From NCBI GenBank assembly GCA_016209155.1, contig JACQWU010000141.1:1-6506 (forward strand): a stretch of 6,506 nucleotides of DNA. The letters are read 5' to 3'. A program made the translations under genes and the position numbers. Positions within the stretch are counted from its first letter, which is position 1; each line of letters opens with the position of its first letter. This DNA comes from Candidatus Desantisiibacteriota bacterium. GTDB taxonomy: Bacteria; JACRDZ01. The notes under the pieces are model-generated. The model searched no databases and was not told where the DNA came from. It saw nothing but the letters and a program-made list of their open reading frames with translations. Shown here piece after piece: positions 1,899-6,506 of this stretch.

Positions 1899-2264
1899 AT
1901 GTCTCAAAAATTTTTTGAAAACAAAAAAGAAATAACTTTATTGTTCAAATCCCTCGAAAATTCTTATGATGGAATTCTTGCATTGGATATTGATTATAAA
2001 ATTCTCTATGCAAATTCTGCGATAAAAAAAATGTTTGGTTTACCTTTACGTGATTTAATCGGCAGTACAGCAGAAATAATACTTACAAAAAATTGTTTAA
2101 AACAAATAAAAGAAAAAGTCCTGAAAAATAAAACATGGGAAGGAGAGTTTTGCATAAAACAAAAAAAAGGCGGGGATTTATTTGTATGGATAAAAGCCGC
2201 CCTTGTTAAAAATAAAATTTCATCCAGGATTCTTTTATTATTTCATGATATTAACGAATGGTAA
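1899..2264 (+). CDS. PAS domain protein, probably the detached N-terminal sensor module of the downstream histidine kinase
   Basis: This 121-residue reading frame is a single PAS fold with almost nothing else. Residues about 15-120 show the pattern ENSYDGILALD (20-30), ILYANSAIKKMFG (35-47), a WEGEF segment (80-84) and a final strand ending LLLFHDINEW. DINEW is where PAS domains normally hand over to a signalling helix. There is no transmembrane segment, so it is cytoplasmic. No ligand can be assigned, since no heme- or flavin-binding signature is obvious. The ATG is the first possible start after an in-frame TAG at 1884-1886, and its ribosome site is weak. The stop TAA is followed by one AAA codon and then the ATG of the kinase in the same frame, so the two read as one 503-residue protein interrupted by one codon. 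It may be a genuine small PAS partner, or the 5' part of a kinase gene carrying a nonsense change. Confidence 0.75.
   Translation: MSQKFFENKKEITLLFKSLENSYDGILALDIDYKILYANSAIKKMFGLPLRDLIGSTAEIILTKNCLKQIKEKVLKNKTWEGEFCIKQKKGGDLFVWIKAALVKNKISSRILLLFHDINEW
2262..2264 (+). other. In-frame TAA separating the PAS module from the histidine kinase
   Basis: Reading through gives DINEW-stop-KMESDLKDY. This matches the usual PAS-to-helix linker (D-I-T-E-R-K-K-M-E-E-E-L pattern) with the stop in the place of one linker residue. A single T-to-A change would give AAA, lysine. The frame is the same on both sides, so a homopolymer indel cannot explain the stop. Confidence 0.8.
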
Positions 2265-2267
2265 AAA

Positions 2268-3410
2268 ATGGAATCGGATTTAAAAGATTATGCAATCAAG
2301 GTTGAGGAAACCTTCCATATTATGGAAGAAGAAAAGCTGAAAACCGAAACTGTTTTTTCCAGTATTGCAGAGGGGCTATTTACGGTTGATAATAATTGGA
2401 TTATAACTTCTTTTAACCCGGCCGCAGAAAAAATCACGGGGATTAAAGCAAGCTATGCCGTGGGGAAGCCGTGCCATGAAATAATACATGGAGAGCTCTG
2501 CAAAAAGCATGAATGCGCGCTTTCAAAATCTAAAAAAACTGGTAGAGTAATGTTAAATATAGAAGGAAAAATACGGGACTCCATGGGACATTGGCTGCCG
2601 GTAATCATAAGTACTGCTCCTTTAAGAAATCCGCAAAATAAAATAACCGGAGGAGTGGAAACTTTCAGAGATGTGAGCGAGCTTGAAAGAGTCAATCATG
2701 AGCTTGTCAGATTAAATAATATCAAAACGGACTTCCTTTCCATGGTCTCTCATGAACTAAAAACCCCTTTAACAATAGTAAAAGGATATTCTGAATTACT
2801 GGTACATGGAAAATTCGGGGAGCTCCTGCCGCACCAAAAAGAAATTGTCAGCATGATTAGGAATAAGGTTGATAAATTAAATTTTCTTATTAATGATTTA
2901 TTGGATGTCTCACAACTTGAATTCGGAAAGTTTAAAATTAATAAACAGTTATTTAGTCTGACAAAACTTCTTACAAATAAAAAAGAGGAATTTAAAATTA
3001 TTGCCGAGAAAAAAAATCTAAAACTGGATTTTAATTCATGCCCGGAAGAAATTGTTATTAATGGAGATCAGGAAAGAATTTCCCAGGTATTATCCAATTT
3101 AATATCTAATGCGATTAAATTTACAAATCCAGGGGGAAAAATAAATGTAAGCTTGGAAAATGGAAGCAATTTTATCAATATCAATGTTGTTGATACAGGT
3201 ATTGGGATGAAACATGAAAAAATAGAAAATATTTTTGATAAATTTTATCAGATAGACACTTCCAATACACGGCAATACAGCGGAATTGGACTCGGACTTG
3301 CTATCAGCAAGGATATTATTGAAATGCACGGCGGTAAAATCAATGTTAAAAGTGAACCCGGATGCGGAAGTACATTTTCTGTTATTCTGCCGTATAAAAC
3401 AATCAATTAA
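2268..3410 (+). CDS. Soluble PAS-domain sensor histidine kinase (HisKA-HATPase), with a cysteine-bearing PAS
   Basis: This is a 380-residue cytoplasmic two-component sensor that should autophosphorylate on His162 and pass the phosphate to a response regulator not found in this window. Residues 1-25 form a charged linker helix, and about 26-140 a PAS domain (SSIAEGLFTVD to TFRDVSELE). The HisKA dimerisation domain follows with the H-box SHELKTPL (161-168). The ATPase domain shows the N-box (NLISNAIKFT, 277-286), G1 box DTGIGM (309-314), F-box FDKF (323-326) and G2 box GIGLGL (339-344). Every catalytic box is intact and there are no membrane segments. The PAS carries C69, C78 and C83 in GKPCHEIIHGELCKKHECAL, an arrangement seen in a subset of PAS sensors and compatible with thiol or metal sensing; that role is inference. 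ATG 2268 is the first start after the TAA but has no Shine-Dalgarno, so translation would need reinitiation or readthrough. Only 18 bases separate it from the next gene. Confidence 0.93.
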   Translation: MESDLKDYAIKVEETFHIMEEEKLKTETVFSSIAEGLFTVDNNWIITSFNPAAEKITGIKASYAVGKPCHEIIHGELCKKHECALSKSKKTGRVMLNIEGKIRDSMGHWLPVIISTAPLRNPQNKITGGVETFRDVSELERVNHELVRLNNIKTDFLSMVSHELKTPLTIVKGYSELLVHGKFGELLPHQKEIVSMIRNKVDKLNFLINDLLDVSQLEFGKFKINKQLFSLTKLLTNKKEEFKIIAEKKNLKLDFNSCPEEIVINGDQERISQVLSNLISNAIKFTNPGGKINVSLENGSNFININVVDTGIGMKHEKIENIFDKFYQIDTSNTRQYSGIGLGLAISKDIIEMHGGKINVKSEPGCGSTFSVILPYKTIN

Positions 3411-3428
3411 CCGGAAAGCAATACAAAT

Positions 3429-3917
3429 ATGCAGCTTAATAAAACAATTTTTTATTTTTTTTGTATAATGCTTTTTTCTATACAAACTGCGTCTTCTCAG
3501 AAGCTTCCGCCTTTTGATACATGCGCAAAGAAACAGGGACCTCAAATTGTTTTAGATCCGCCTGTCCTTAAATTTGGAAAAGTTAGTGTGCAAAATGCTA
3601 CTGCATCCAAAACTGTTAAATTATATAATAAAGGTGATTCAGATCTTATTATTACAAATTTAAGAGTTTCCTGCGGGTGTGTAAGTGTTTCCTTCAAATC
3701 TGGGAAAAATAAAAGTCCCTATTTCGGCATATATGGCTCTACTCCGGGATGGAAGGAAAAAATTGCCCCTGCAAGCTACGCTGAATTGACAGTAATTCTT
3801 GATTTAACGGATTATCCTGTTTCAGAAGGGATTCAAATAAAAGATATTTTCATATCCAGCAATGGGACAAGAAATCCTGAATTAATACTAAAAGTTGAAA
3901 TGGAAACCATAAAATAA
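3429..3917 (+). CDS. Secreted DUF1573 domain protein with a CGC motif
   Basis: This 162-residue protein has a probable signal peptide (Lys5, hydrophobic 7-20, cleavage likely near TASSQ, 20-24) and one DUF1573 domain at about 42-160. DUF1573 domains are Ig-like (ASH/MSP-type) modules of unsettled function. The landmarks are LKFGKVSV (48-55), the strand KTVKLYNKGDSDLIITNL (61-78) and the family hallmark SCGCV (81-85; CGCT in most members), followed by a proline-aromatic stretch and a final strand typical of the subfamily. C82 and C84 flank one glycine and could form or exchange a disulfide; C32 in the mature N-terminus is a third cysteine. There is no lipobox, so it is probably periplasmic or exported and soluble. 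A GGAAAG ribosome site lies 10 bases before the ATG, and the gene sits between the kinase (18 bases) and a thiol-transfer membrane protein (4 bases). A role as redox client of that protein is inference. Confidence 0.88.
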   Translation: MQLNKTIFYFFCIMLFSIQTASSQKLPPFDTCAKKQGPQIVLDPPVLKFGKVSVQNATASKTVKLYNKGDSDLIITNLRVSCGCVSVSFKSGKNKSPYFGIYGSTPGWKEKIAPASYAELTVILDLTDYPVSEGIQIKDIFISSNGTRNPELILKVEMETIK

Positions 3918-3921
3918 TAAC

Positions 3922-5091
3922 ATGGAAAACAACAAAATTATTCTGATAATTTGTTTTATTATCACTATTTTTTCCTCTCCTGTTTTTTCTGATACACGAA
4001 AATATGAATCAACTCTTCCAGGGCTCATTATCTTTCATTCTCTTTCATGTAATTCCTGCATTAAGGTTAAAAAGGAAATAATACCTGAAATAGAAAAAAA
4101 ATTTCGAAACAGAATACTTATAGAATTCCGCGATATTGCAGATATAGGGAATTATAAGCTTCTTATAAGTCTTCAGGAAAAATACAAAATAAAATTAAGC
4201 AATGATTTACCTGTATTTTATCGAGAAAAAAAAATAAAAAAAAATTATGAAATATTTATTAATAAAATGCTGTATTCCCCCAAAAAAGAAGAGATACAAA
4301 ATTTCAATTCAGTGGATTTAATATCCCGTTTCAGATCATTTAAACCTGCTACGATTATTTCTGCCGGTTTAATTGACGGAATTAATCCCTGTGCTTTTAC
4401 GGTTATTGTATTTTTTATGTCTTTTTTAGTAGTGCAGGGTTATAGAAAAAGACAACTGGTTATAATCGGATTATCATTTATTTTTTCTGTATTTCTAACT
4501 TATTTTTTGCTGGGCCTCGGAATTTTTGGATTTCTTTATCAACTAAAAAATTTTTGGCTCATAACAAGAATATTTAATGTTTCCATAGGTATATTCAGTA
4601 TTATACTCGGAATTCTGTCGATTTATGACTTTATCAAGTTTAAAAGTACAAATGAAACAAAAGACCTTCTTCTGCAATTACCGGGTGCAGTAAAAAGACA
4701 GATACATTCGGTAATCAGATTGTATAATAAAAATCCCGAAGATAATGAAAAGAACGAATTTGAAAAAAAAAGCATTATCAGTCTGGTGATAAGCGCTTTA
4801 ATTTCAGGATTTCTGGTATCATTATTAGAGGCAGTATGCACAGGACAGGTTTACCTTCCGACCATAACATTTGTTTTAAAGACTTCATCCTATAAATTAC
4901 AGGCTTTCATGTATTTACTGCTTTATAATCTTATGTTTATTTTCCCCTTATTTATTGTTTTTTTATTAGCTCTTTCAGGCACAACAACAGCACAATTCTC
5001 CCGATTTATAAATAATAATCTTTCCGCACTTAAGATACTTATGGCTATTTTATTTTTTGTTTTTGGAATATTCTTAATATTTCTAAAATAA
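3922..5091 (+). CDS. Thioredoxin-like/CcdA (DsbD-family) fusion, membrane thiol-disulfide electron transporter
   Basis: This 389-residue protein has an N-terminal signal or anchor segment (5-23), a thioredoxin-like domain with CNSC (C43-C46) and a probable cis-proline in NDLPVF (P97), then a six-helix membrane domain at about 145-388. The membrane domain carries the two CcdA/DsbD transmembrane cysteines: C157 in GINPCAF (helix 1) and C306 in EAVCTGQVYLP (helix 4). Hydrophobic helices lie near 145-171, 178-207, 216-236, 286-306, 328-350 and 367-388. DsbD-family proteins carry electrons from cytoplasmic thioredoxin across the membrane. Here the exported CNSC domain precedes the membrane core rather than following it as in E. 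coli DsbD. A charged loop at about 240-283 separates the two three-helix halves. Likely uses are cytochrome c maturation or reduction of exported thiol proteins, with the adjacent DUF1573 protein an obvious candidate. The start lies 4 bases after the previous stop and lacks a clear ribosome site, suggesting coupling. Confidence 0.88.
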   Translation: MENNKIILIICFIITIFSSPVFSDTRKYESTLPGLIIFHSLSCNSCIKVKKEIIPEIEKKFRNRILIEFRDIADIGNYKLLISLQEKYKIKLSNDLPVFYREKKIKKNYEIFINKMLYSPKKEEIQNFNSVDLISRFRSFKPATIISAGLIDGINPCAFTVIVFFMSFLVVQGYRKRQLVIIGLSFIFSVFLTYFLLGLGIFGFLYQLKNFWLITRIFNVSIGIFSIILGILSIYDFIKFKSTNETKDLLLQLPGAVKRQIHSVIRLYNKNPEDNEKNEFEKKSIISLVISALISGFLVSLLEAVCTGQVYLPTITFVLKTSSYKLQAFMYLLLYNLMFIFPLFIVFLLALSGTTTAQFSRFINNNLSALKILMAILFFVFGIFLIFLK

Positions 5092-5925: not shown

Positions 5926-6506
5926 GTGCGCGAACCCAACCCAAATGAAATTGAAAAATTATTGGAATCAGTTTTCCCTTTTTGGAGTATAAGCAAAAAA
6001 AATGAAATCACAAGGCTTATATATGAAATATCCAAAAGAGAAAATATCCCTTCCCATGAAATAATTCATAATCAGGAAGGGAAGCGTTTTTCTATAATTA
6101 AATCAGATTTACTAAGAAAACGTTACCCCTATGCATTTATTCATGAAAAAGCCCCCAAATTCTATATGCCAAAACTTGAAATAATACCCGAAAATAAATT
6201 AAAAATTAACAATAATTTTTTTTGCCCGCAGGAAATTTATATTGAAGAAGGTATTGAAAATAATTATCTTATTTCAAGATTTAAAAATCTTTTTCCTGAG
6301 GCGCAATTCAGCTATATCTCATCACTAAAAAATTACCTTAAAAATAAATCTTTCACGATTAAAGACTACAACGACAGAAGAAATAAATTTTTTATAATTA
6401 AAGAAAAATTTGATTTTGTGAAACAATGTCCCTGCACTCCGTCTGCAATCCCATGCGGATACAACATTTTCAATTTGGGATTCGGCTGTCTTTTTGAATG
6501 TACTTA
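5926..6506 (+). CDS. SPL-like radical SAM protein (spore photoproduct lyase family), partial, N-terminal 193 residues
   Basis: The open frame runs to the right edge without a stop. Near the edge it reads CPCTPSAIPCGY (168-179), then FNLGFGCLFECT (182-193), with two bases of the next codon. C188 and C192 are the first two cysteines of a radical SAM C-x3-C-x2-C cluster motif; the third would fall at residue 195, just outside. The upstream stretch FFCPQEIYIEEG (98-109), a run ending FPEAQFSYI (123-131), and RRNKFFIIKE (151-160) follow the layout of the spore photoproduct lyase family ahead of its cluster. That family includes DNA thymine-photoproduct repair enzymes, but many members in non-spore-formers have unknown substrates. 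Extra cysteines C168, C170 and C177 could bind a second metal. The first 80 residues are not recognised. GTG 5926 is chosen because an in-frame TAG lies at 5908-5910 and AGGAA at 5909-5913 precedes it; an ATT at 5920 is a less likely alternative. Confidence 0.8.
   Translation, partial: MREPNPNEIEKLLESVFPFWSISKKNEITRLIYEISKRENIPSHEIIHNQEGKRFSIIKSDLLRKRYPYAFIHEKAPKFYMPKLEIIPENKLKINNNFFCPQEIYIEEGIENNYLISRFKNLFPEAQFSYISSLKNYLKNKSFTIKDYNDRRNKFFIIKEKFDFVKQCPCTPSAIPCGYNIFNLGFGCLFECT

Follow-up and report, generated by a model that had tools for sequence, protein, structure and literature searches.

Does a single TAA codon that separates a PAS domain from a sensor histidine kinase in one reading frame interrupt a gene, or does it mark the boundary between two genes? 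The window analyzed here is a whole contig of 6,506 bases (G000:C41) from a metagenome-assembled draft genome (352 contigs, 3.08 Mb in total, with an estimated completeness of 79%), in which a search for 16S rRNA found none. An original prediction described positions 1899-3410 as a multi-PAS histidine kinase split by one in-frame TAA. Our analysis instead indicates that these positions probably hold two adjacent genes on the same strand with a stop-start junction, one encoding a small free PAS protein and the other a complete single-PAS histidine kinase, and we put the probability of this reading at about 0.64. Comparisons within the phylum were made with three other genomes, all of other families. 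For comparisons within the source genome, contigs totalling 0.59 Mb were sampled, and their genes were called by codon usage.

The PAS and Kinase Open Reading Frames

The first open reading frame (ORF) lies on the forward strand at 1899-2264, running from ATG to the TAA at 2262-2264. A single whole PAS domain makes up its 121 aa (E 1.5e-7, covering positions 2-103 of the 103 in the PAS_9 profile), and the sequence also matches TIGR00229 (E 1.5e-9). With one complete PAS domain and no other content, the ORF has the composition of a free single-domain PAS protein. Single-sequence folding gave a PAS-like model of modest confidence (mean pLDDT 63), and the Foldseek matches to this model were PAS and LOV domains, including some free-standing short LOV proteins.

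The second ORF (forward strand, 2268-3410, ATG to TAA) encodes 380 aa with PAS (1.7e-9), HisKA (6.3e-18), and HATPase_c (1.8e-31) domains in that order, all above curated cut-offs, as in a PAS sensor histidine kinase. The H, N, G1, F, and G2 motifs are visible in the sequence, and the motif SHELKTP supplies the conserved histidine at which autophosphorylation is predicted. The best solved relative by sequence is the SrrB kinase core (E 6.5e-47). Per-residue codon scores are alike for the two ORFs. The coordinates and layout that had been proposed (1899-2264 and 2268-3410 in one frame, with TAA-AAA between) are exact, and the accompanying statement that both parts keep their expected motifs without decay holds, given a whole PAS domain in one ORF, HisKA and HATPase_c with all boxes in the other, and like codon scores. 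The description as a multi-PAS kinase fits the read-through product; the kinase ORF itself has one PAS domain.

Relatives of the Kinase

The nearest kinases in the phylum genomes are those of G001:C68 (422 aa) and G003:C6 (JAQUKH010000006.1; 423 aa), and both are continuous. They have the same domain order as the window kinase, are about 45% identical to it over residues 145-498 of the read-through frame, and share with it a PAS domain carrying the cysteine motif GKPC..IHGELC....CAL. They differ from the window kinase in having an extra coil of 14 alignment columns before HisKA. Both belong to another family of the phylum, have no upstream PAS gene, and have other gene neighbors; the gene preceding each of them looks from its sequence like a dehydrogenase of the isocitrate/isopropylmalate kind. 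Because gene neighbors differ, orthology is putative rather than proven, and we compare these proteins as nearest relatives.

The two relatives start about 35 residues ahead of the shared PAS domain, without any earlier PAS domain. Judged by the extent of these continuous relatives, the 380-aa ORF, described earlier as the kinase half of a longer gene, is in itself a whole kinase. To call it a kinase split by one TAA is to presume a fused ancestor, which is not seen in the nearest relatives. PAS domains of the kinase type were also sought in 84,980 species, each represented by one genome; most are preceded by about 30 residues in proteins 450-490 aa long, and by length and context we take these proteins as putative sigma-54 regulators. 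This type of PAS domain is thus usually the first domain in other proteins, which is consistent with a gene that starts where the window kinase does.

The Stop-Start Junction in the Source Genome

The two ORFs are parted by TAA (2262-2264) and AAA (2265-2267), a gap of 3 nt, so that the junction TAA-AAA-ATG (forward strand, 2262-2270) is a stop, one untranslated codon, and a start. One frame shared by directly consecutive genes is not beyond chance in the source genome, where it was seen in 33 of 332 sampled same-strand neighbor pairs. Exactly one codon separates stop and start in five listed pairs among the 332, the window's included. Two of the others have the identical nine bases: the CoaE-IspD pair (L181) and a pair in which a cyclase gene comes after an epimerase gene (L182). 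In another, made up of two branched-chain permease genes (L192), the junction reads TAA AAT ATG. These pairs are plainly separate, complete proteins. Since the same junction parts unrelated complete genes, the shared frame and single stop, which had been read as the sign of a split, are no evidence of one, and the arrangement in the window is ordinary for this genome. The importance of the case beyond annotation is small: where A+T content is high and TAA-AAA-ATG normally serves as a gene boundary, as in this genome, two ORFs in the same frame and one stop apart do not indicate a split gene.

Shine-Dalgarno motifs occur at 56% of starts in the genome and at 13% of control positions. None precedes the kinase ATG, and none was found at any of five forward genes checked in the window, so its absence at 2268 does not discriminate between explanations.

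Programmed readthrough of the TAA would let a single frame give rise both to a short PAS protein and to a long kinase with two PAS domains, in a ratio shifted by some condition, and had been put forward as a switchable sensor. The frame is open beyond the stop, and the domain order of the read-through product is sensible. Against readthrough, the same junction also parts unrelated genes, whose joint translation would be meaningless; the kinase starts from a separate ATG and matches its relatives in extent; and TAA terminates other genes of the window. Folding of the RNA after the stop indicated no structure (z = -0.40). We know of no recoding signal or leaky stop context that is present at this TAA. 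We consider readthrough highly improbable. A scan of the read-through protein against viral contigs gave no match. Since other genes here terminate at TAA, we rejected a changed genetic code. We also rejected slippage in the A run, as had been done originally, because both ORFs share one frame.

Resemblance of the Junction to a PAS Linker

The sequence around the stop had been described as an ordinary passage from PAS domain to linker in which a stop takes the place of one residue. Some proteins do align ungapped next to the stop, for example ADITERKRMEDALRE against HDINEW-stop-KMESDLKD. To a linker profile built from 50 true PAS linkers, KMESDLKDY scores 1.96 bits. This score is reached by 6 of 308 ordinary N-termini from the same genome, taken with the codon before ATG, and is beaten by 49 of the 50 true linkers. 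Extending the PAS ORF over the stop raised its score on the PAS S-box model by 2.6 bits and its scores on two kinase models by 5.6 to 5.8 bits; among eight control N-termini, the gain was exceeded by one on S-box, one on AtoS, and none on PnpS. A weak likeness to PAS linkers therefore stands, although nearly all true linkers score better. It hints at a former fusion of the two sequences, and we treat it as suggestive and not as proof.

Possible Nonsense Mutation or Base Error

The somewhat linker-like junction also counts in favor of a rival explanation, in which one gene of about 503 codons encoding PAS-PAS-HisKA-HATPase is interrupted by a nonsense mutation of recent date or by an error at one base of the draft consensus. 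Apart from the window PAS, none of the 136 PAS_9 and 111 PAS matches in the four phylum genomes lies in an open frame of fewer than 200 residues, a finding that favors this explanation. Free single PAS proteins are rare in the genomes compared, so fission of a fused gene and nonsense mutation both remain live histories for the locus. The position of the stop speaks against mutation or error: it falls exactly between domains, one codon before an ATG. By our own estimate, a stop placed at random among 503 codons would do so with a probability of about 1% or less. The nearest relatives have no fused form and lack the first PAS domain altogether.

Broken genes occur elsewhere in the draft genome, including a MutL gene spread over three frames and a PAS kinase gene divided between two, which makes another broken gene in the window easier to accept; the breaks found, however, are frame changes or N gaps. 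In-frame stops are scarce, with at most two sites in 106 kb of aligned coding sequence from the source genome, one of which was read as a kinase-to-receiver boundary. The MutL-like gene (L177, G000:C32, about 2479-3970) extends over three reading frames with no N gap, and may be either a decayed mismatch-repair gene, with a possible mutator phenotype, or the product of assembly indels. The PAS kinase (L291, G000:C302, 4750-6550) is another PAS-PAS-kinase gene, with a frame change inside a PAS domain and sequence apparently missing. An apparent sensor/kinase split on contig C11 of the source genome was rejected as a 27-N assembly gap.

A kinase split by a single stop does occur in a relative. 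The histidine kinase at 1374-2900 of G002:C42 (L304) has a single in-frame TAG at 2217-2219, and its neighboring paralogue is intact, 60% identical, and aligns ungapped across the stop; from the alignment, this is a clear case of nonsense or sequencing error. The stop in L304 is in mid-kinase with no start beside it, whereas that in the window is between domains with an ATG one codon on. Nonsense mutation or base error in the window is thus possible but not favored, and it ranks next after the gene pair.

A Probable Stop-Start-Coupled Gene Pair

Gaps of -8 to +10 nt between adjacent genes are treated as predictive of termination-reinitiation, and a gap of about 20 nt nearly abolishes coupling (PMC10666635). 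The PAS and kinase ORFs are on the same strand with a gap of 3 nt, inside this range. They resemble described termination-reinitiation pairs in these respects and may likewise be coupled, and they differ from the commonest form, which is an overlap of 4 or 1 nt (PMC10666635; PMC6728339).

Several features argue for a pair of genes. Both ORFs are intact, their ends coincide with domain boundaries, the kinase has the extent of its relatives, and the junction is of an ordinary type; the stop follows a complete PAS domain, and the ATG comes one codon later. In the phylum relative G003, free PAS-PAS proteins are encoded as separate ORFs directly upstream of signaling genes, which provides a parallel for a free PAS protein in this position. 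Counting against the gene pair are the standing of the window PAS as the sole one in such a short frame, the somewhat linker-like junction, and the lack of a Shine-Dalgarno motif at the kinase ATG. Stop-start reinitiation with a free PAS protein was one of four explanations in the original prediction, and it fits best among them.

If the two genes are co-transcribed, a ribosome ending the PAS protein at the TAA could restart on the ATG one codon on, so that a single message would give both proteins in linked amounts. Once free, the PAS protein would sense alone and act in trans, with the neighboring kinase as its simplest target. In Caulobacter, the single-domain PAS protein MopJ was found in complex with the kinase DivJ (PMC4432633). 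Like MopJ, the window protein is small and has one PAS domain, and by analogy it may bind a histidine kinase; MopJ differs in its length (165 aa) and in its PAS type (PAS_5).

Many histidine kinases have tandem PAS domains, and the read-through frame would share their domain order; unlike them, the window has a stop and a start between the first PAS domain and the rest. We give roughly even odds that the gene pair arose by fission of a fused PAS-PAS-kinase gene. With such an origin, the locus would illustrate on a small scale how a sensor domain can come away from its kinase. The titles and abstracts found on split or fissioned PAS kinases contained nothing bearing on this case.

Cysteine Motifs in the Window

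The PAS domain of the kinase (2346-2675) has the cysteine motif GKPCHEIIHGELCKKHECAL, common to the phylum relatives. A looser form occurs in many N-terminal PAS domains from Desulfobacterota, Zixiibacteriota, and others. The motif might bind metal or sense redox. Directly downstream of the kinase, 3429-5091 encodes a DUF1573 protein and a membrane protein, the latter with a thioredoxin-like CxxC (HSLSCNSCIKV) and a CcdA/DsbD-like appearance, which suggests that thiol redox is a theme of the genes next to this kinase with its cysteine motif. The last ORF (5926-6504) runs off the contig end and has no Pfam or NCBIfam match; its cysteine-rich end (CPCTPSAIPCGYNIFNLGFGCLFEC) is reminiscent of a radical-SAM-type protein.
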